This document shows positions 11,531 to 22,618 of a stretch of 64,000 nucleotides of DNA, one piece after another; within the stretch, counting starts at the first letter, position 1, and the number at the start of each line of letters is the position of its first letter. Source of the stretch: Kitasatospora albolonga (lineage in GTDB: Bacteria > Actinomycetota > Actinomycetes > Streptomycetales > Streptomycetaceae). A program made the translations under genes and the position numbers. The notes beneath the pieces are model-generated. The model saw nothing but the letters and a program-made list of their open reading frames with translations. It did not search any database and was not told the DNA's origin. The DNA is taken from contig CP020563.1 in the NCBI GenBank assembly GCA_002082585.1, forward strand, positions 496,001 to 560,000. The letters are read 5' to 3'.

Positions 11531-11650
11531 GCCGCTCCCCGTTGTGGTGGTCGCATCCGACCCTAGTGCTCTGACCGGGAAGGTTCGCCGGGTTGGCGAT
11601 TGGAGCGGTTGGATGGGCGGGTGACGTCCGTTCCGACCGCTGGAGGTGTG

Positions 11651-12769
11651 GTGGCTGAGCCTGTGCGGGTGCGCAGACTGACCGACCAGGAAGGGCAGAA
11701 GCTGCAGCAGATCGTGCGCCGGGGAAGTACCAGCTCCGTGCGTTACCGGCGTGCGATGATGCTGCTGGCCTCGGCGGGCGGGAACCGTGTTCCGGTGATC
11801 GCCCAGTTGGTCCAGGCCGATGAGGACACGGTGCGGGATGTGATCCACCGGTTCAACGAGATGGGCCTGGCCTGCCTGGACCCTCAGTGGGCGGGAGGCC
11901 GTCCCCGCCTGCTCAGCACTGACGACGAGGACTTCGTCGTCCAGACGGCCGCCACCCGCCCCGCGAAGCTCGGCCAGCCCTTCACCCGCTGGTCGATCCG
12001 CAAACTCGCCGCCTACCTGCGGAAAGTGCACGGACGTGTCATCCGCATAGGCCGTGAAGCCTTACGGTGCCTGCTCCGGCGCCGCGGCATCACCTTCCAG
12101 CGCACCAAGACATGGAAGGAGTCGCCCGACCCCGAGCGCGACGCCAAGCTCGACCGCATCGAGCACGTCCTGGAGCACTTCCCGGACCGGGTCTTCGCCT
12201 TCGACGAGTTCGGGCCGCTGGGGATCCGGCCCACCGGAGGCTCCTGCTGGGCGAAGCAGGGCAAGCCCGACCGTCTGCCGGCGACCTACCGCCGCACGCA
12301 CGGCGTGACCTACTTCCACGGCTGCTACTCCGTCGGGGACGACCGGTTGTGGGGCGTCAACCGCCGCCGCAAAGGCACCGCCAACACGCTGGCCGCGCTG
12401 AAGTCGATCCGCGCCGCCCGGTCTGACGGCGCCCCGATCTACATCATTCTGGACAACCTCTCCGCCCACACCGGTGCGGACATCCGCCGCTGGGCGAAGA
12501 AGAACAAGGTCGAGCTGTGCTTCACCCCGACCTATGCGTCCTGGGCCAACCCGATCGAGGCGCACTTCGGCCCGCTGCGGCAGTTCACCCTGGCGAATTC
12601 CAACCACCGCAGCCATCCCGCGCAGACCCAGTCACTGCACCGCTACCTGCGCTGGCGCAACGCCAACGCCCGCCACCCCGACGTCCTCGCCGCACAGCGC
12701 AAGGAACGCGCCCGCATTCGCAGCGAGAAGGGCATCCGCTGGGGCGGCAGACCAGCCCTCGCGGCGTGA
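11651..12769 (+). CDS. IS630-family transposase
   Basis: A 372-residue DDE transposase. The N-terminal helix-turn-helix region (LTDQEGQKLQQIVRRG to RDVIHRFNE) has the winged IS630 layout. The catalytic acidic residues are visible as AFDEFGPL, IILDNLSAHT and ANPIEAHFG. GTG at 11651 was chosen because GGAGG lies 5 nt upstream and MAEPVRVRRLTDQEG fits the family start. GTG 11621 and TTG 11600 are in-frame alternatives. The gene looks intact and undisrupted, so the element may still be active. Confidence 0.92.
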   Translation: MAEPVRVRRLTDQEGQKLQQIVRRGSTSSVRYRRAMMLLASAGGNRVPVIAQLVQADEDTVRDVIHRFNEMGLACLDPQWAGGRPRLLSTDDEDFVVQTAATRPAKLGQPFTRWSIRKLAAYLRKVHGRVIRIGREALRCLLRRRGITFQRTKTWKESPDPERDAKLDRIEHVLEHFPDRVFAFDEFGPLGIRPTGGSCWAKQGKPDRLPATYRRTHGVTYFHGCYSVGDDRLWGVNRRRKGTANTLAALKSIRAARSDGAPIYIILDNLSAHTGADIRRWAKKNKVELCFTPTYASWANPIEAHFGPLRQFTLANSNHRSHPAQTQSLHRYLRWRNANARHPDVLAAQRKERARIRSEKGIRWGGRPALAA

Positions 12770-13465: not shown

Positions 13466-14418
13466 CTAGCTGTATTGCCCTGTGAGGTTGGGGACGCGGG
13501 TGGCGGGTGGTTTGCCTGCGAGCGCGGTGTGTCCGCGGTGGTGATTGTAGGTGTGCAGCCAGGCGGGGAAGGCGTCGCGTCGTTCCTGTTCTGAGCGGTA
13601 GGGACGGGCGTAGGCCCATTCGTCCAGCAGGGTGCGGTTGAGGCGTTCGACCTTGCCGTTGGTCTGGGGCCGGTAGGGCCGGGTTCGCTTGTGGGCGATC
13701 CCGGCTGCTGCCAGGGTGTCGCGCCAGGTGTGGGACTTGTAGCAGGCGCCGTTGTCGGTCAGGACGCGTTCGACGGTGATTCCGACGCCGGTGAAGTAGG
13801 CGTGGGCCCGCTGCCAGAAGGCGGTGGCGGTTTCCTTCTTCTCGTCGGTGAGTATCTCGCTGTAGGCCAGGCGGGAGTGGTCGTCGACGGCGGTGTGGAT
13901 GTACTGGTAGCCGACACCGGACCTGGTCCTGCGGCCCGCCGGGCGGCCCAGGACTTTGTGGCCGCCGCCGTCGGGGATGTTCCCGAGTTTCTTGATGTCC
14001 ACGTGTACCAGCTCGCCGGGGCGGTCGTGTTCGTAGCGGCGTATGACGCGGCCGGTGGCCCGGTCCAGATGCTTCAGGCGGGCCAGGCCGAAGCGGGTCA
14101 GGACCCGGTGCACGGTCGAGGGGGCCAGGTTCAGCAGGTGCGCGATGCGGGCTGGTCCCAGCGCCGCAGGACTCTGACCTTGATGATCCGGCGTTCGGTT
14201 CGGGTCGCGGTCCGGCGCGGGCTGTGGTGCGGGCGGGAGGAGCGGTCGCTCATGCCGGCCTCGCCCGTGGCCCGGTAGCGGGTGGCCCACCGCTGGGCCG
14301 TGGTGGGCGAGACCTGGAAGCGTTCTGCCGCGCGTCGAAGAGGCCAGCCATCCTCGACCACGCAGCGGGCCAGACGCAGGCGGCCGGTCTCGGTCAGAGG
14401 TGCATTACGGTGGGGCAC
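13466..14418 (-). pseudogene. IS481-family transposase, single frameshift
   Basis: The N-terminal frame starts at GTG 14418 (VPHRNAPLTETGRLRLARCV) and carries the helix-turn-helix (EDGWPLRRAAERFQVSPTTA). It runs out at RRWDQPASRTC. The catalytic part resumes in the -1 frame at GPARIAHLLNLAPSTVHRVL near 14158. It carries the rve-type DDE residues: LVHVDIKKLG, VLTDNGACYKS and NGKVERLNRTL. One missing G in a GGG run (TGGGACC for the expected TGGGGACC) explains the break. No standard slippery heptamer is seen, so a programmed shift is unlikely. The stop TAG (13466-13468) lies outside the element, in the duplicated target. Confidence 0.88.
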
Positions 14419-14706: not shown

Positions 14707-17700
14707 TCAGGCTCTGCAATCGGGATCATTTGGCGGTGGGGGCGCCGCGCGGCCGGAGCGCTCGGCTTTCGCGTACTGGTCCACCAGCTTGTTGTAGGTG
14801 AGGTCCGGGAGCGCTGGGTGAGACTCGCGCAGGGCGTCCCGGTAGGCTCGGGTAGCCACGGTGATGTAGTGGTCGGGGCCCAGGACGCGCAGGCAGTCGT
14901 CGGTGAGTGCGGCGAAGGCGGCGAGGCCGTCGGCCGGGGCGGTGTCGCGGCGGGTCCGCGCCTCGGCCAGACAGCCGCGGACTATCAGGGTCAGGAGGTG
15001 GTCTGGTCCCACGATCCGCAGGGCTGCCGGTAGCAGGTCCTCGTACGCGGCGACCGCCCTGGTGAAGTCTCCGCTATCCGCGAGCAGTCCGGCGTAGGTG
15101 GCGCGGACGGGCAGTGTCTCGACATGGTCGGGCGGCATGAGCCGCTGGTAGTCGTGGAGTAGTTCGCGGCATGCCTCGGCCGCCCCGGCCGGGTCGCCCG
15201 CCTCCGCCCGGCAGCCGAGCAGGCGGCTGCGCAGGTCGAGGGTACGCGGATGGTCGGGGCCCAGGGCGCGCGTATAGTCCGCGATCAGCTCCTGGTAGAC
15301 CGGGATCATCGTCTCCGCCTCCGCGTCGTGGGAGCGGCAGTCGGCAAGGTCGCTGCGCAGCCGGAGGGTGTCCGGGTGGTTCGGGCCCAGCACTTGGCCG
15401 TGCACGGTGATCAGGTCCTCGTACGCCGCGATGGCCATGGCCGTGTCGCCCGCTTCGCGCAGCTTCTCGGCAAGCAGCCTGCGGGTGCGCAGGGTCTCTG
15501 GATGGTGCAGGCCCAGTACCCGGGCCATGTCTTCCTGTAGTTCGCGGAGGTCGGTGACCGCCTTGGAGTGGTCGCCTGCTTCGCCGCGCCAGTTGGCCAG
15601 TTCCGCGCGGGTTGTCAGGGTGAGGGGGTGCTCGGGGCCCAGGGCCTGTTGGCAGTCGGCGAGCAGCGCGGCGAACGCCTCGGCTGTCTGGCCCGGATCA
15701 CCGATCACGCCCTCGATACTGAGGAGGACGCTGCGCAAGAGCAGCACCTCGGAGCGGTTGGGGCCCCAAAAAGGGCGCAGGGCGGCAATCATCTCCTTCA
15801 GGACCTCGGCGGCGGCGACCGGATCACTCTCCGCAAGGCCGTGCTGCCACACCCGGAGGAAGCTGCGGTTGCTGATGACAAGCGGATGTTCAGGCCCGAA
15901 GGTCTGCTCCAGCAAGCGGGCCGACTCGTCCATGCCGACCGGTGCCGCGGTGACGGCTCCCGCCTCGTTGCGCAGCAGTCCCAGGGCGTAGCGGGCACGG
16001 GAGATGTCGATGTGATGGGCGCCCAGGACTCGCACGGCGTCGTCGATCATGTCCGCCAGCTCGGCGGCGGCTCCGGCTGGATCTCCTGCGGCGGCACGCC
16101 ACTCGGCCAGCTCGTGCCGCACCGCCAGGGTGCGGTGGTCGTCGCGGCCGAACTCCGCCACGTGCTCGTCCAGCATCTCCCCGAACCGGTCGCGGGCCCC
16201 GACAGGGTCGCCCGCCTCACCCTGCAGGCGCGCGAGCTTCATGCGTACGTCCAGGGTCATGACGTCGAGGGGCCCAAGGTATGCCCGGCAGTCGCCGAGC
16301 AACTCCTCGTACAGGGCTGCGGCGCGCGGCGCGTCTCCCCTCTCGCGGTGTAGGAAGGCGATCCGAGAGCGGACCGAGAGAGTGTTGCGGTGGTGTGGAC
16401 CCCGGACGCGCCGGTAGTCGACGAGCAGTTCCTCGTAGTCGGCCAGCGCACCGGCCAGATCGCCACCGCTGACTCGGGCGGCTGCAAGCTCGCCGCGAGC
16501 GTCGAGGGTGGTGAAGCCGTCGGGTCCGACCAGACGGGTGCAGTCCGCGGCCAGCTCCGTGTACGCCGCCACGGCCTCTGCGGGGTGTGCGGTGAATCTC
16601 AGGAAACGGAGGGAGTTGCTGCGGCAGGTGAGGGTACGGGGGTAGTCGGCGCCATACTTGTGCGCGGAGGTGGCCGCGAGCTGCCGGTAGTGGTCATTCG
16701 TCGCCTGGTAGAGCCCCGCATGGCCGAGGCTCTGGCCCAACCGGAGCAGGACCTCGTGCACATCGTGGTCCGACCACAGCAGGTGCTCGTCATGGGACCG
16801 CAGCGTCTCGGTGTTGGCGCGGAACCGCTGGCCGGTGGCGAAGTCACGTTCCGGCTCTGGCCATGCGTGGAGCAGGGCGTCGGCCGCCGCCCGGACGGTC
16901 CGGGCCAGCAGTTCCGGCGGAAGCTGCTCGCGCACACTGCGCTGCACCAGCCCGTGGACCTGAACAGGCTGGCCTGGCGTGTAGGTGACCAGGCTGAGCC
17001 GGTGCAGGGCGTGCAGCGCGCCTGCAGCGTCCTCAGCTGTCGCGGGGATCGGTTGCTGGGTGTCGGGGGGGCGGTGGCGGGCGAGGTGGGTGAGTGCGGG
17101 GCGGCTGGTCAGGACATCGGTGGGGATGCCATTGGGGTCGAGCATTGCGGCGAGTTGGAGCATGGGGCGTGCCAGGCCGGCGGGGCGGAGCCGGTCGGCG
17201 TGTTCGATGGACAGGGACCAGGTGGCCGCCACCGTGACGGCTTGGTCGTCGGGCAGAGCGCTGGTTTCGGGGAGCAGGTCGGCCAGTTTCCTGAGCCGGT
17301 CGGCCAGCAGACGGCGGTAGCGGGCACAGGTGACGTTGGTGTCGATGATGTAGGCGGCGGCCTGGGCCAAAGCAAGGGGCAGGTGCCCAAGGTCGGCGGC
17401 GAGGCTGTTGATCTGGTCGGTGGGCTCGTGACGGTCGTGCGCGGCGAGTACGGCGGTGAGATAGGCGGCGGCGTGCTGGGGGGTAAACAGGCCCACAGTC
17501 ACCCGGCGTCGGCCGGCGCCGGTCAGGGCGGCCTCGCGGCGGCGTGTGGTGACCAGGACACGCCCGCGCGGGCTGGCGGGCGGCCACCAGCCACGTATAT
17601 CGGCCGGGTCCGCGACGTCGTCCAGCACGACCAGCCACCGGCACGGCTTCTGGCCGGCCTTCGGCTCCAGCCAGGCCAGGAACGCCCGCGCGGCCTGCTC

Positions 17701-18294
17701 AGGGTCGCCGGGGTCGGCGGCAAGGACCTCCACACCGGCCTGCGCGTACCCGGCCGTGATCGCTGAGCGGCTGCTCGCGCTGATCCACACCAGTACGTCG
17801 ACCCCGCCGCTGTCCCAGGCGGTGCGGGCGTAGTCGGCGGCCAGCTGGGTCTTGCCCACGCCACCGGTCCCAGTCAGCACCTGGGTGAGCACCGCGGTGC
17901 CCCCGTTGTCGACTGCCGTCCGCAACTGGTCGACCTCGGCCCGGTGCTGGAAGGACTGGGCGCGGGGTGGGATCACGCCGACCTGGTGTGGCCAGGTGGC
18001 GGGTGTGCGCGGCGCGGCCTGCCGCACCAGGGTGAAGCGGTCGATCGCCAGGTACCCGGTGACGGCCAGGCCGCCCTCGCTGGCGGTAGCGTCCCCCGTA
18101 CGGCTTACGTGTACTGGGCTGTCGGTGCCTGGGTCCGGTCCGGTGTAACCGGTCACCGCCGTGGCGCCATCGCGGGCGGTGGCAGCGCCGGTTTCCGCGG
18201 CGGTGGCCGACGGCTCGCGTTTCGGGTCCGCGACCTCGGGACCAGCGTTGGGGGCACCGTCCGGGTCGGGATGGCGGTTGGACCATCGTGCCAT
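14707..18294 (-). CDS. NB-ARC ATPase with C-terminal tetratricopeptide repeats (NLR-like)
   Basis: A 1195-residue STAND-type protein. Residues 1-115 are a low-complexity region with two copies of a 17-residue motif (ETGAATARDGATAVTGY at 34-50, RTGDATASEGGLAVTGY at 65-81). The NB-ARC domain has Walker A GTGGVGKTQ (142-150), Walker B WLVVLDDVADP (220-230), the RGRVLVTTRR sensor and GHLPLALAQAAAY (GLPL). From about residue 600 to the end run some 13 TPR units with the kinesin-light-chain-like signature LGPDHPxTLxxR. ATG 18294 was chosen over earlier in-frame starts because GGGAGG lies 8 nt upstream and the upstream extension has no domain. Such proteins act as sensors that oligomerise on ligand binding. 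The small membrane-protein gene 41 nt upstream shares the motif. Confidence 0.88.
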   Translation of the reverse strand: MARWSNRHPDPDGAPNAGPEVADPKREPSATAAETGAATARDGATAVTGYTGPDPGTDSPVHVSRTGDATASEGGLAVTGYLAIDRFTLVRQAAPRTPATWPHQVGVIPPRAQSFQHRAEVDQLRTAVDNGGTAVLTQVLTGTGGVGKTQLAADYARTAWDSGGVDVLVWISASSRSAITAGYAQAGVEVLAADPGDPEQAARAFLAWLEPKAGQKPCRWLVVLDDVADPADIRGWWPPASPRGRVLVTTRRREAALTGAGRRRVTVGLFTPQHAAAYLTAVLAAHDRHEPTDQINSLAADLGHLPLALAQAAAYIIDTNVTCARYRRLLADRLRKLADLLPETSALPDDQAVTVAATWSLSIEHADRLRPAGLARPMLQLAAMLDPNGIPTDVLTSRPALTHLARHRPPDTQQPIPATAEDAAGALHALHRLSLVTYTPGQPVQVHGLVQRSVREQLPPELLARTVRAAADALLHAWPEPERDFATGQRFRANTETLRSHDEHLLWSDHDVHEVLLRLGQSLGHAGLYQATNDHYRQLAATSAHKYGADYPRTLTCRSNSLRFLRFTAHPAEAVAAYTELAADCTRLVGPDGFTTLDARGELAAARVSGGDLAGALADYEELLVDYRRVRGPHHRNTLSVRSRIAFLHRERGDAPRAAALYEELLGDCRAYLGPLDVMTLDVRMKLARLQGEAGDPVGARDRFGEMLDEHVAEFGRDDHRTLAVRHELAEWRAAAGDPAGAAAELADMIDDAVRVLGAHHIDISRARYALGLLRNEAGAVTAAPVGMDESARLLEQTFGPEHPLVISNRSFLRVWQHGLAESDPVAAAEVLKEMIAALRPFWGPNRSEVLLLRSVLLSIEGVIGDPGQTAEAFAALLADCQQALGPEHPLTLTTRAELANWRGEAGDHSKAVTDLRELQEDMARVLGLHHPETLRTRRLLAEKLREAGDTAMAIAAYEDLITVHGQVLGPNHPDTLRLRSDLADCRSHDAEAETMIPVYQELIADYTRALGPDHPRTLDLRSRLLGCRAEAGDPAGAAEACRELLHDYQRLMPPDHVETLPVRATYAGLLADSGDFTRAVAAYEDLLPAALRIVGPDHLLTLIVRGCLAEARTRRDTAPADGLAAFAALTDDCLRVLGPDHYITVATRAYRDALRESHPALPDLTYNKLVDQYAKAERSGRAAPPPPNDPDCRA

Positions 18295-18335
18295 CGGACA
18301 GAAACCTCCCACACGCTCTGGCCGTTCCGGCCCGG

Positions 18336-18692
18336 TCAGCTGAAGTCGATACCCGTGCTCGCGCTGCTGCCAGGCCCGTCCGCAGTGGCGTCCCCGGTTC
18401 GCTCTGCCCGAATCGCCCCACTCCCGGCATCTTGCGGGCGTCGCACGCCCGTAGACGCCCGGCCTCCACCGGTGGCCTCGGCCTTTCCGGTATCGACCAC
18501 CACAACCCCAGGCTGTGGGGTGGTTGAGGACTGAAGCAGCGCCCAAACCAGGGCGGCAATACCAGTGGCGCCCTGGACTGAAGCGGCAACCAGCTGGCCG
18601 GTATCCGGGCTGTCCAACAGCCAAAAGAACGGCGTCGACACGGTCAACACGACCGCTGCCACCATGACCGTGGTCTTCCTACGTCGCGACAC
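18336..18692 (-). CDS. Small two-helix membrane protein sharing motifs with the NB-ARC protein
   Basis: A 118-residue protein from GTG 18692, with a purine-rich G-run ribosome site. Two hydrophobic helices (residues about 8-26 and 34-53) are followed by a soluble tail. The tail holds two copies of the Gly/Ala/Thr motif also found in the downstream NB-ARC protein: DTGKAEATGGGRASTGV (67-83) and RTGDATADGPGSSASTGI (98-115). It ends IDFS. No known family was recognised. Being upstream in the same direction with only 41 nt between genes, it is probably co-transcribed and may be the membrane-acting partner of the NB-ARC sensor. This is inference from shared motif and order. Confidence 0.65.
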   Translation of the reverse strand: MSRRRKTTVMVAAVVLTVSTPFFWLLDSPDTGQLVAASVQGATGIAALVWALLQSSTTPQPGVVVVDTGKAEATGGGRASTGVRRPQDAGSGAIRAERTGDATADGPGSSASTGIDFS

Positions 18693-18837: not shown

Positions 18838-19113
18838 CTACTGCTTTGCCTGCATCTGCGAAGGCTCCGCCCTTTCCCGGCCCCGGGGCGGGGACGGCTG
18901 CCCATCCAGCGCGGCCCGAGGGCCGGGCACGGTGGCCGCAGCGAGGTTGAGACGGGCATCCATGTCGAGGTTGGCCTCCCCGTACGGGCGCACATGGGAC
19001 CAGAACAGCGGGGTCAGGCCGCGCCGGTCGGCGGGCGTGAAAAGGCCGGCCCACTCGGGTTCGCCGAGGACGTCTTGGAGCATGAGGGTGCTGACGTAGA
19101 CCAACGCTGGCAC
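18838..19113 (-). pseudogene. Tn3-family transposase, C-terminal fragment (probable)
   Basis: The frame reads ALVYVSTLMLQDVLGEPEWA, then LTPADRRGLTPLFWSHVRPYGEANLDM. This combination I associate with the C-terminal end of actinobacterial Tn3-family TnpA proteins; the assignment is from memory. About 90 residues remain. The 5' side is cut at about 19113, where sequence of an unrelated oxidoreductase begins on the other strand. No start or catalytic core is present. Confidence 0.6.
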
Positions 19114-19114
19114 T

Positions 19115-19457
19115 GGGCACCATGCGCTCGCACGACCAGTGGAACACCACCATCTACTCCGACAACGACCGCTACCGGGGCATCAGGAACCTGCGGACGC
19201 TCGTCTTCATGAACCGGGCCGACATGCGCGAACGCGGTATCACCGAGCTCGGCCCGGTCGACATCACGAGCACGGCGAAGGACGGCAGCCGACGCCGTCT
19301 CAACGGCTGTCTGGCGATCCCGTACGACATTCCGCGCGGCTGTGCGGCCGGGTACATGCCCGAGATGAACGTGCTGTGCGCGCTCGGCGACTACAGCACC
19401 CAGAGCGACCAGCCGATCATGAAGCATGTGAAGGTGACGATCGCGCCCGCCGTCTGA
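19115..19457 (+). pseudogene. YdeP/FdhF-type molybdopterin oxidoreductase, C-terminal remnant
   Basis: About 110 residues from RSHDQWNTTIYSDNDRYRGI to the stop match the C-terminal molybdopterin-dinucleotide-binding domain of FdhF/YdeP oxidoreductases. Recognisable stretches are NLRTLVFMNRADMRERGI, IPYDIPRGCAAGYMPEMNVL and GDYSTQSDQPIMKHVKV. The full enzyme is over 700 residues, and everything upstream is missing and replaced by the Tn3-transposase fragment. The ATG at 19122 is only an internal Met of the lost gene. This dates the mobile-element event as having destroyed a resident gene. Confidence 0.8.
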
Positions 19458-19661: not shown

Positions 19662-21734
19662 ATGCCCCCATTCCCCAGCCGCTCCCCGCGCTCCCGCCGC
19701 AGGCTCCCCGCCCTCGCACTCGCCGCCGCCCTGGGAGCCGTGGCTCTCGGCGCGCCCTCCCCCGCGTCGGCCGCACCGGCCGCCGCGGCCGAACCGGACT
19801 ACCTGATCGGACGCGGCATCGCCGATGTCACCGGGGAGGCCGCCGAGACCGGGATGATGGGCTACTCCAGCTTCGACCAGAAGACCTCCGGCATCCACCA
19901 GCGCCAGCGGTCGCGCGCGTACGTCGTGGCCGACCGGGCGACCGGCAAGCGCGTGGTCTACGTCAACGCCGACCTGGCGATGATCTTCCAGTCGGTGCGG
20001 CAGGGCGTCCTCGCCCGCCTTGAGGAGCGGTACGGCAGCCTGTACGGGGAGGAGAACGTCCTCCTCTCCGCCACCCACACCCACTCCGGCCCCGGCGGCT
20101 ACTCCCACCACGTGGCGTACAACCTCTCCGTGCTCGGCTTCCAGAACGGCACCTACCGGGCGATCGTCGACGGCATCGCGGAGTCCGTCGCCAAGGCCCA
20201 CGACGATCTGCGGCCCGGCTCCATCAGCCTGGGCACGGGCACGCTCACCAACGCCAGCGTCAACCGTTCCCGTGAGGCGTTCGACCGCAATCCGGCGGCC
20301 GACCGGGCGGCCTTCCCCGGCGGGATCGACCCGGCGATGACCGTGCTGCGGTTCCGGCAGGGCGACAAGGACGCGGGCGCGATCAGCTGGTTCGCCACCC
20401 ACAACACCTCGATCACCAACAAGAACACACTGATCAGCCCGGACAACAAGGGCTATGCCGCCTACGCCTGGGAGCACGGCCACGAGGGCGTGCGCTATCT
20501 CGACAACACCCCCGGTTTCGTCGCCGCGTTCCCCAACACCAACGCCGGGGACATGTCCCCGAACCTCAATCTGAAGCCCGGATCGGGGCCCACGGAGGAC
20601 GAGTTCGAGAACGCCCGCATCATCGGTGAGCGCCAGCTCGACAAGGCCCGCGAGGTCTACCGGGACGCGCGGCCGGTGTCCGGCGGGGTGGATGCCCGGC
20701 TCGCCTATGTGGACATGGAGAACGTCACCGTACGCGGTCAGTACACGAGCGACGGGAAGGAGGCCCGCACCTGTCCCGCCGTCGTGGGCGCCTCCACGCT
20801 CGCGGGCAGTGTGGAGGACGGCCCGGCGATCCCCGGCTTCGAGGAGGGGATGCGCACCCCGGTCGCCGGAATCATCGACGCGCTGCGCATCGATACCCCG
20901 TCCTGGCTCGCGGCCTGCCAGTACCCGAAGGCGAGCCTGATCCCGACGGGTCTGCTGAGCAACGTGCACCCGGTGACCCCGAAGATCCTGCCGCTCCAGA
21001 TCATGCGGATCGGGGAGCTGTACCTGGTGGCGGGCCCGGGCGAGTTCACGATCACCGCCGGGCTCCGGGTGCGCCGGACCGTGGCGCAGGAGCTGGGGGT
21101 CCCGCTGGACCGGGTGCTGCTCCAGGGGTACGCCAACGCCTACAGCCAGTACGTGACGACGCCGGAGGAGTACGACACCCAGAACTACGAGGGCGGCTCC
21201 ACGCTCTACGGCCGGCACACGCTCCCCGCCTATCAGCAGGAGTACGCCCGGGTCGCGGCCGCCCTGCGCCAGGGCACCCCGGTGGAGCGCGGCACGGCCC
21301 CGCCGGACGAGTCGGCCCGGCAGTTCACGTTCCAGACGGGCGTGGTCTACGACAACCCGCCGCTCGGCAAGGCGTTCGGCTCGGTCCTGACCGGCCCGGC
21401 CTCCTCGTACGCGCGCGGCTCCACGGCCACCGTCGAGTTCGCCACCGGCCACCCGAAGAACAACGTGCGCCGGGGCGGAACGTTCCTGGAGGTCCAGCGT
21501 CTGGCGGCCGACGGACGGTGGACGCGGGTGCTGGACGACGGTGACTGGGAGACCACGTACCGCTGGACCCGGATCAACGGACTGACCGGTACGTCGAAGG
21601 CCACGGTCACCTGGAGGATCGGGGCGGACACCCCGCCCGGCACCTACCGGATCGTGCACCACGGGGACGCGAAGAACCTGCTGGGGAGGATCACCCCGTT
21701 CACGGGCACGTCCTCCGCGTTCACCGTGACATGA
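19662..21734 (+). CDS. Secreted neutral/alkaline ceramidase
   Basis: A 690-residue protein with a Sec signal peptide (residues 1 to about 38, RRRLPALALAAALGAVALGA then ASA). The ceramidase catalytic domain shows SATHTHSGPGG (136-146, zinc-binding His region) and WFATHNTSITNKNT (243-256). Ser250 there matches the unusual nucleophile of bacterial neutral ceramidases. NTNAGDMSPNL follows. A C-terminal immunoglobulin-like domain (from about residue 560) ends at FTVT. It hydrolyses the N-acyl bond of ceramides outside the cell. AGGAGGT lies 5 nt before ATG. The gene is intact, monocistronic and followed by a strong hairpin. Confidence 0.93.
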   Translation: MPPFPSRSPRSRRRLPALALAAALGAVALGAPSPASAAPAAAAEPDYLIGRGIADVTGEAAETGMMGYSSFDQKTSGIHQRQRSRAYVVADRATGKRVVYVNADLAMIFQSVRQGVLARLEERYGSLYGEENVLLSATHTHSGPGGYSHHVAYNLSVLGFQNGTYRAIVDGIAESVAKAHDDLRPGSISLGTGTLTNASVNRSREAFDRNPAADRAAFPGGIDPAMTVLRFRQGDKDAGAISWFATHNTSITNKNTLISPDNKGYAAYAWEHGHEGVRYLDNTPGFVAAFPNTNAGDMSPNLNLKPGSGPTEDEFENARIIGERQLDKAREVYRDARPVSGGVDARLAYVDMENVTVRGQYTSDGKEARTCPAVVGASTLAGSVEDGPAIPGFEEGMRTPVAGIIDALRIDTPSWLAACQYPKASLIPTGLLSNVHPVTPKILPLQIMRIGELYLVAGPGEFTITAGLRVRRTVAQELGVPLDRVLLQGYANAYSQYVTTPEEYDTQNYEGGSTLYGRHTLPAYQQEYARVAAALRQGTPVERGTAPPDESARQFTFQTGVVYDNPPLGKAFGSVLTGPASSYARGSTATVEFATGHPKNNVRRGGTFLEVQRLAADGRWTRVLDDGDWETTYRWTRINGLTGTSKATVTWRIGADTPPGTYRIVHHGDAKNLLGRITPFTGTSSAFTVT

Positions 21735-21859: not shown

Positions 21860-22618
21860 ATGGGTGACCAGCCCGGCGCCGAGCCCACTGTGTCCGTCCA
21901 GCGGGACCTCCGGTTGCTGGAGGCCGCAGGAGCACATCCGGCGGGTGCCCCCGCAGCGCAGCTGGCCCGGGAGGCCGAGCTGCCCCCGGTCGTGGCCGGG
22001 GAGCACCTGCACGCGCTGGCCGAGGACGGTTACCTCAGGGAGCTGGACGACGGGGCGTTCGCCCCCGCCGACCGGAGCCTGTCACCGCACGCCAGACCCG
22101 GGGGCCGGTCGTGGACGGAGCGCGTCCGCCCCCTGCTGACCTCGCTGCGCGACAGGGTGTCCGCCGCCGCCTACCTGACGCTGTACGACGAGGGGGAGAT
22201 CCGGGTCCTCCAGATCGTGGACAGCCCCCGGGCGCCCCGGGTCGACCTCTGGGTCGGCTTCGAGGACGCCGGGCACGCCACGGCCCTGGGCAAGAGCGTG
22301 CTGGGCGGCCTGGACGAGGAGGCCCGCGCCAACTACCTCTCCCGCCACCCCCTGGCCGACCTCACCTCCCACACCATCACCCGCCGCGAGGAACTCCTCC
22401 GGGAGCTGGACTCCCCGCCGATGGCGCCGCTCGCCAGGGACCGGGAGGAGTACAAGCGCGGGACGACCTGTGTCGCCGTACGCGTGTACAGCGGTGACCA
22501 GGTCGGATCGCTCGGCATCTCCTTCCGCTCGGACCGGATGTACCGGACGAGCGAGATCAGGGAACAGCTCCTGTCCTCGGCGCTGCGCATCACCCGCAGG
22601 CTGACGATCCCTGAGTGA
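21860..22618 (+). CDS. IclR-family-like transcriptional regulator
   Basis: A 252-residue protein. The N-terminal 75 residues are a divergent winged-helix region (RDLRLLEAAGAHPAGAPAAQ to LAEDGYLRELDDGAFAP). The C-terminal IclR effector domain is clearer: AYLTLYDEGEIRVLQIVDSP, GHATALGKSVLGGL, HTITRREELLRELD and CVAVRVYSGDQVGSLGISF. It probably senses a small carboxylate. It is transcribed after the ceramidase terminator and faces the acyl-CoA dehydrogenase gene tail to tail. The target is unknown. Confidence 0.85.
   Translation: MGDQPGAEPTVSVQRDLRLLEAAGAHPAGAPAAQLAREAELPPVVAGEHLHALAEDGYLRELDDGAFAPADRSLSPHARPGGRSWTERVRPLLTSLRDRVSAAAYLTLYDEGEIRVLQIVDSPRAPRVDLWVGFEDAGHATALGKSVLGGLDEEARANYLSRHPLADLTSHTITRREELLRELDSPPMAPLARDREEYKRGTTCVAVRVYSGDQVGSLGISFRSDRMYRTSEIREQLLSSALRITRRLTIPE

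Follow-up and report, generated by a model that had tools for sequence, protein, structure and literature searches.

A Gly/Ala/Thr-rich repeat shared by an NLR-like receptor and a predicted two-helix membrane protein in Kitasatospora albolonga

Introduction

Here we analyse two adjacent genes in a 64,000-nucleotide stretch of the genome of Kitasatospora albolonga (GenBank assembly GCA_002082585.1, a single contig, CP020563.1, of 8.03 Mb). The stretch, called the window below, covers bases 496001-560000. One gene encodes a small predicted membrane protein, the proposed effector, and the other an NLR-like protein, the proposed receptor, and each protein carries two copies of a short repeat. An earlier note, made from the DNA letters alone, had compared this arrangement with bacterial amyloid signalling motifs (BASS), in which an NLR-like sensor and the product of the adjacent gene share a motif. 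We found that the repeat recurs in the two neighbours across genomes, and that receptors with a related core but another motif stand beside effectors whose tail motif is of the same class. Loci and genomes are cited by our own handles (L and G numbers).

Results

Two adjacent genes carry the same double repeat

Both genes lie on the minus strand, the small gene (18336-18692) first and the receptor gene (14707-18294) next, separated by a 41-bp gap. Their features, in window positions, are as follows.

18336..18692, minus strand: small membrane protein, the proposed effector, 118 residues, GTG start at 18692 (open reading frame (ORF) and translation; relatives in 20 loci and 24 plasmid records)
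18618..18686, minus strand: predicted transmembrane helix 1 of the effector, residues 3-25 (AlphaFold2 helix; hydropathy)
18528..18602, minus strand: predicted transmembrane helix 2 of the effector, residues 31-55 (AlphaFold2 helix; hydropathy)
18444..18494, minus strand: effector motif copy 1, residues 67-83, DTGKAEATGGGRASTGV (translation, alignment; model strands 71-74 and 78-84)
18348..18401, minus strand: effector motif copy 2, residues 98-115, RTGDATADGPGSSASTGI (translation, alignment; model strands 102-105 and 110-116)
14707..18294, minus strand: NLR-like receptor, 1195 residues (NB-ARC, DUF7779, TPR), ATG at 18294 (Pfam; NCBIfam NF040586)
18145..18195, minus strand: receptor motif copy 1, residues 34-50, ETGAATARDGATAVTGY (alignment; A1 profile E 8.1e-7 across both copies)
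18052..18102, minus strand: receptor motif copy 2, residues 65-81, RTGDATASEGGLAVTGY (alignment; top single-repeat match, 22.2 bits)
17347..17880, minus strand: NB-ARC NTPase domain, receptor residues 139-316 (PF00931, E 1.5e-9)
16912..17172, minus strand: DUF7779, receptor residues 375-461 (PF25000, E 3.2e-7)
15025..16503, minus strand: TPR region, the presumed sensor, receptor residues ~598-1090 (TPR_12 in 9 stretches, TPR_10 in 4 stretches)

The receptor ORF as listed (14707-18624) starts upstream of the probable start, the ATG at 18294, which is preceded by GGGAGG and with which the residue numbers of the earlier note agree. All four motif copies that the note had placed are present in the two translations. 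Those of the effector sit in its C-terminal tail after two hydrophobic stretches, and the two membrane helices that the note had put ahead of them are likewise predicted by hydropathy and by the AlphaFold2 model. Those of the receptor lie at its N terminus, ahead of the P-loop as described, with the NB-ARC, DUF7779 and TPR domains found by Pfam following downstream. The window effector matches no Pfam family, and its NCBIfam matches fall far below cut-off. Its N terminus is basic (SRRRK), which suggests an N-inside protein with both ends of the hairpin, and therefore the repeats, in the cytosol.

The similarity of the two ends exceeds chance

The repeat is 16-18 residues long, with the consensus TGxAxAxxGGxAxTG[VIY], and no Pfam model matches it. 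The offset from one copy to the next is 31 residues, identical in effector and receptor; it recurs in 48 of the 72 effectors in which it was measured, and two copies are also usual in receptors paired with type A effectors (defined below). Local alignment of the effector end with the receptor end gave a score of 86, which none of 5000 shuffles reached (best 72), while the best of 1314 100-residue pieces of the window outside the locus scored 64. A profile (A1) built from 26 aligned tails of relatives of the small protein, receptor sequences excluded, yielded just two significant matches in the window genome, the effector (E 2.7e-27) and the neighbouring receptor (E 8.1e-7), the next one being at E 0.07. 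The invariant and near-invariant columns of A1 fall within the repeats, outside the linker. Finally, alignment of the effector-tail profile with the receptor N-terminal profile extended over 56 columns, linker included, with a probability of 98.0 and an E value of 2.6e-13.

The motif is retained in neighbouring genes across genomes

We searched 295 genomes of the same genus, window genome included, with A1. Matches at E<=0.01 occurred in 79 of them, a patchy distribution. At E<=1e-4 there were 79 places in 59 genomes, which by hand count are 68 tails of small ORFs and 11 adjoining receptors; the search of the window genome likewise returned linked places only, which contradicts the possibility, raised in the earlier note, that the motif is equally common in unlinked proteins. 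Of these small-ORF tails, 65 were checked in the DNA, and every one of their matches ends at most 14 residues from the stop. The remaining three are second copies in G199, G254 and G151, with the same E and the same frame length; in these genomes the motif tail lies on opposite strands near both contig ends, as if in terminal inverted repeats. Across 396 genomes sampled from the phylum, 9 matched at E<=0.001, three from the same genus and six from outside it, and among the latter only G491 was better than 1e-5. The identified relatives of the locus come mostly from Streptomyces, and also from Embleya, Frankia and Verrucosispora, all of filamentous habit, so that the multicellular host characteristic of BASS is found for them too.

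Pooling the window, genome contigs, plasmids and the genus search, and merging tails identical across the last 100 residues, gave 84 distinct effectors; L108 (E 1.2e-4) was excluded because its match is not C-terminal, and L077 was left out of the effector alignment. A hidden Markov model (HMM) of a single repeat, trained exclusively on effector repeats, was applied to 900 bp around and past each effector stop, the frame containing the motif match being taken as the receptor reading frame. At >=6 bits it found the motif in the downstream neighbour of 64 of 84 effectors, as against 1/84 antisense, 0/65 deeper in the receptor and 2/80 upstream. The corresponding figures at >=10 bits were 55 downstream and none in any of the three controls. 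Lowering the threshold to >=2 bits raised the downstream count to 75 of 84, of which L085 was discounted (776 bp away), and inspection revealed a diverged copy in five more (L066, L070, L076, L088 and L100). Altogether, 79 of 84 effectors have the motif in the immediately downstream gene, a tally to be read as a count and not as a probability, since related genomes are not independent. The co-occurrence in adjacent genes that had been proposed for a search across genomes is therefore borne out, and random loss of the motif from one partner is not what these genomes display.

Three of the other five effectors, one each in L018, L074 and L075, are second effectors converging on a receptor that already has an upstream effector. 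In these loci the receptor is flanked by two motif-tailed effectors with unrelated bodies, a two-helix one upstream and a converging type C effector, which lies on the opposite strand ~4.6-5 kb from the receptor motif; L075 contains three motif-tailed effectors inside ~11 kb. In L030 and L106/L128, the effector tail or body is split over two frames, an apparent decay of the pair.

Relatives also reside on plasmids (24 records). Among seven plasmid regions that we opened, two of them without annotation, one adjoins cas1e/cas2e and one a Pycsar effector. The former holds the plasmid locus most closely related to the pair (L028, 1-2276), downstream of type I-E cas5e-cas6e-cas1e-cas2e with transposase-annotated genes intervening. 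In the latter, from a Streptomyces canus plasmid, a gene annotated as a Pycsar system effector family protein adjoins the pair (L033, 5088-5552).

One tail serves several effector bodies and receptor types

Assigned by signature and by eye, the bodies of the 84 effectors comprise 52 of type A, a two-helix hairpin like that of the window effector; 20 of type B, a second two-helix type that may be distantly related to type A; 7 of type C; 3 of type D, another helical body; and 2 that are frameshifted. Types C and D, which bear the same tail, presumably resemble Bell. The effectors of L024-L026 match the window effector in the tail only (from query residue 61, 64 or 66 to residue 118).

On the receptor side, we took a census of the 65 downstream partners that extend 300 residues or more past the motif (Pfam, E<=0.001; one protein may count repeatedly). 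NB-ARC was found in 46, DUF7779 in 31, AAA_16 in 17, NACHT in 8, nSTAND3 in 4 and VMAP-C in 1, and a loose Walker A pattern is present in 60 of the 65. STAND-type NTPases are thus the usual partner of motif-tailed effectors. The effectors of L012, L015 and L016 are 78%, 72% and 57% identical to that of the window, their receptors only 29%, 24% and 21%, and the motif is kept in all three receptors; the one in L015 is a NACHT protein, and Pfam matches nothing in the first 600 residues of those in L012 and L016.

Motif classes change together in receptor and effector

With the NB-ARC-DUF7779 core alone as query, we obtained a set of 30 loci from 101 genomes, in which motif classes were assigned by reading, unblinded. 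The search recovered receptors that resemble the window core and lack the window motif. Upstream of these lie mostly type C bodies with the tail GSIAGGVIHGG, and the receptor carries a related, degenerate motif of HSVAxGxI type. Three further loci have pairs of their own. In L121 (core 60% identical) a type D body with DFRHSPLHGPVVGKGT lies next to a receptor with DFRRSTSHGPVLGKGT; in L129 (core 46%) a two-helix body with GGVAAGGDLTGNAIG accompanies a receptor with GGVGAGGDATHNAVG; and in L132 (core 43%) a two-helix body with NIKQTAGN and VDQVGGD neighbours a receptor with DINQFAGG, a motif that we take to resemble RHIM/BASS3. Shared motifs other than that of the window (GSIAGGVIHGG, DFRxSxxHGPVxGKGT, GDxTGNAIG and the RHIM-like one, two of them with two-helix effectors) occur on related NB-ARC receptors in L121, L129, L132, L111-L113, L116, L117, L120, L124, L125 and L127.

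Both sides could be read, by eye and unblinded, in 21 of the 30 loci, and all 21 look concordant (9 with the window motif, one of them decayed, 9 of GSIA type and 3 single); the other nine could not be judged. Of the 28 loci entered in a permutation test (L109-L136; not L137 and L138), 15 gave both ends by an automatic rule. For these 15 loci, which share the NB-ARC core, the mean cognate score lay above all 10,000 partner permutations, and the best-scoring receptor shared the effector's motif class in 15 of 15 (matrix read by eye). This suggests that the motif is exchanged together in both genes, at class level. The class-level swapping in both partners adds evidence beyond that of the earlier note.

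Predicted structure of the repeats

AlphaFold2 models were made of single chains, the effector with 32 effector sequences and the receptor N terminus with 27 sequences. The effector model has helices at residues 3-25 and 31-55 and strands at 71-74, 78-84, 102-105 and 110-116, its best blocks by predicted local distance difference test (pLDDT) being residues 71-80 (82) and 101-110 (84). In the receptor model, strands at 30-33, 38-40 and 45-47 are repeated 31 residues on, at 61-64, 69-71 and 76-78. At modest to low confidence, each repeat is thus modelled as strand-turn-strand, the layout expected for two stacked beta-arches. HET-s is built of two stacked beta-arches.

Genomic surroundings of the pair

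The pair is surrounded by mobile elements. Upstream, at ~18900-19200 (minus strand), a signature search detected a 3' remnant resembling a transposase that we assign, presumably, to the Tn3 family. Tn3-like remnants also lie upstream in L008, L014, L023 and L099, a type B locus included. Tn3 carriage as a general rule was not supported: the simple signature search, in which many of the 84 loci were represented by short upstream DNA only, placed a Tn3-like transposase end ahead of the pair in 5 loci. Downstream of the pair are two transposase-like genes, at 11600-12769 (plus strand) and 13466-14290 (minus strand), of the DDE_3/HTH_29 and rve families. Beside the locus, a neutral/alkaline ceramidase gene occupies 19662-21734 (plus strand; E 1e-185), followed by an IclR-type regulator at 21860-22618.

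Discussion

The best reading of these data, and one that we consider reasonably probable, is a two-gene NLR signalosome of BASS type with a two-helix membrane executioner. Its parts are not equally firm. It is very likely that receptor and effector are coupled through the shared motif; amyloid-type templating by that motif is probable, and membrane killing by the effector somewhat likely. The apparent joint exchange of the motif points to a plug-and-socket signal to the membrane, probably amyloid-like.

Several observations weigh against this reading. Both models are weak overall (effector, mean pLDDT 66.9 and predicted template modelling score (pTM) 0.34; receptor N terminus, 55.3 and 0.29). 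Foldseek, run on the effector model only, found no match at E<=10, and searches of PDB sequences with tail and effector profiles gave chance matches only (best E 0.51 and 1.5), none of them HET-s. The motif is Gly/Ala/Thr-rich, being neither hydrophobic nor Q/N-rich. PADLOC assigned no defence family to either protein at E<=0.1. The next gene has no detectable motif for two of the 84 effectors, L085 and the frameshifted one of L030. In the permutation matrix, an effector's own receptor gave the top raw score in just 7 of 15 loci (one a tie); the cognate partners in L111, L120 and L124 score 27-30, the level of chance pairs. Finally, cognate pairing brings no added similarity within the TGxATA family, 599 of 5000 permutations reaching the observed value for 75 pairs; by class, those reaching it numbered 2165 (A), 262 (B), 4577 (C) and 3351 (D) of 5000. 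Pair-specific recognition is therefore without support, and together with the class-level concordance this makes the motif look like a class-level plug and not a per-pair lock and key.

How far the pair resembles known systems bears on the same question. As described in the available excerpts of PMC7889193, PMC8086366, PMC9815663 and PMC12261475, which draw on Dyrka et al. 2020, BASS systems combine an NLR with a Bell effector. To judge from these excerpts, the likeness is that in multicellular actinomycetes an NLR carries N-terminally a short motif which a membrane-type effector from the neighbouring gene carries C-terminally; sharing between adjacent genes holds in the window and for the next gene of 79 of 84 effectors. 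Excerpts of PMC8086366 also state that repetition on the Bell side is comparatively frequent for BASS4, as in HET-s, and that BASS grammars reserve symbols for glycine and, very often, for alanine. The body of the window effector is a predicted two-helix hairpin with no Pfam match, which may or may not be a Bell domain. The BASS interpretation of the earlier note is partly supported, in architecture and genetic logic; amyloid formation, membrane disruption and a defence role remain putative. The motif may belong to one of the ten families already published (BASS1-10). We regard the logic as a known one, here with a two-helix effector body.

In the fungal HET-S/NWD2 amyloid signalosome, as excerpted in PMC7889193, a killer acting on membranes likewise ends in a tail with two pseudo-repeats, and the motif recurs at the N terminus of the NLR. 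This signalosome differs from the present pair, which has a two-helix body and not HeLo, and whose receptors usually carry two motif copies when paired with type A effectors; at E<=10 the tail and effector profiles matched no HET-s entry among PDB sequences. Effector-associated domains (EADs) likewise occur both in a core protein and in an effector encoded next to it, although in the excerpts of PMC7159879 these are domains and the element here is a 16-18-residue repeat; no such Pfam match was obtained for either protein. SLATT proteins, according to the same excerpts, are two-helix effectors of conflict systems and predicted to form pores. The window effector has no SLATT match in Pfam, and L103, a type B relative, matches SLATT_3 only below threshold (E 0.055). 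Open-access literature on bacterial amyloid signalling, NLR and Bell, and on STAND, two-transmembrane and EAD proteins, did not describe the pair in a title or the start of an abstract, which does not prove its absence; the available excerpts of PMC8195603 and PMC10907252 add nothing on the motif.

The alternative that survives best, although we consider it unlikely, is homotypic docking without amyloid, in which a finite small beta-solenoid or strand addition would let the membrane protein recruit or anchor the activated receptor at the membrane instead of being a templated killer. It draws on the same shared-motif data (single-repeat HMM, swap test and profile-profile alignment) and is favoured by the low hydrophobicity of the motif and by EADs, which join partners homotypically and in the excerpts of PMC7159879 are not presented as amyloid. 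Short repeated strand-turn-strand units at chain ends, however, fit an amyloid motif better than a globular adaptor, and one tail on several effector bodies looks like a general trigger.

Restraint, a toxin-antitoxin-like arrangement in which the receptor repeats would cap the effector tail and keep a toxic hairpin silent until sensing, strikes us as quite improbable. The adjacent genes, with a small membrane toxin-like protein first, would suit it, and the sign of the interaction is not fixed by present data. Against it, STAND NTPases generally assemble upon activation, and the extra convergent effectors of L018, L074 and L075, beside a receptor already served, would be odd under one-to-one capping.

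It is very improbable that the receptor is part of an FxSxx-COOH peptide system and that the small gene is incidental. The receptor does match NCBIfam NF040586 (FxSxx_TPR) with 422.5 bits, above the cut-off of 300, but the match begins at residue 108, past the motif region, and the small gene and motif accompany receptors of very different type. FxSxx-COOH systems are accompanied by genes for a radical SAM protein and an FxSxx-COOH peptide; the ten neighbouring ORFs scanned, which are not the whole window, gave no radical SAM match, and the peptide was not sought. The name 'FxSxx-COOH system TPR protein' that the NCBI equivalog model gives the receptor is a possible over-annotation. Least of all do we credit the repeats being low-complexity Gly/Ala linkers typical of high-GC Streptomyces proteins and alike through composition alone: high GC and the Gly/Ala-rich composition speak for this, but we rejected it on the shuffles (0/5000), the profile search of the window genome, the genus search with zero unlinked matches among its 79 places (hand count), the single-repeat HMM controls and the concentration of conserved columns in the repeats and not the linker, and the swap test contradicts it as well.

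For the BASS-type signalosome, the shared motif, the adjacency, the class-level co-exchange, the STAND-type partners and the predicted two-helix body, all obtained by computation, allow us to infer a course of events. The TPR part would sense a trigger, after which the NB-ARC ring would oligomerise and gather many N-terminal double repeats into a small beta-solenoid nucleus. This nucleus may act as a template from which the cytosolic double repeats in the tail of the two-helix effector take up the same fold. The templated tails would cluster the hairpins and damage the membrane, resulting in abortive infection or programmed death. A putative defence role fits the patchy distribution, the carriage on plasmids and the cas1e/cas2e and Pycsar neighbours.

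More tentatively, and with some doubt, we propose for Streptomyces that a Gly/Ala/Thr two-rung beta-solenoid repeat outside BASS1-10 is an exchangeable connector from STAND receptors (NB-ARC, NACHT and others) to a class of very small, non-Bell two-helix executioners; that such hairpins are also used with at least two further connectors, one of them RHIM-like (L129 and L132); and that the motif, and neither receptor nor effector, is the unit swapped in evolution, in both genes at once.

The loci compared here amount to a natural swap experiment, in which the receptor chassis stays roughly constant while its N-terminal motif class and the tail class of its neighbour change together. This pattern is direct genetic support for short repeats, not globular contacts, linking bacterial NLRs to their effectors. 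A two-helix body of ~65 residues would rank among the simplest membrane executioners, and the Gly/Ala/Thr repeat is a candidate for a class of signalling folds that could escape ordinary amyloid predictors.

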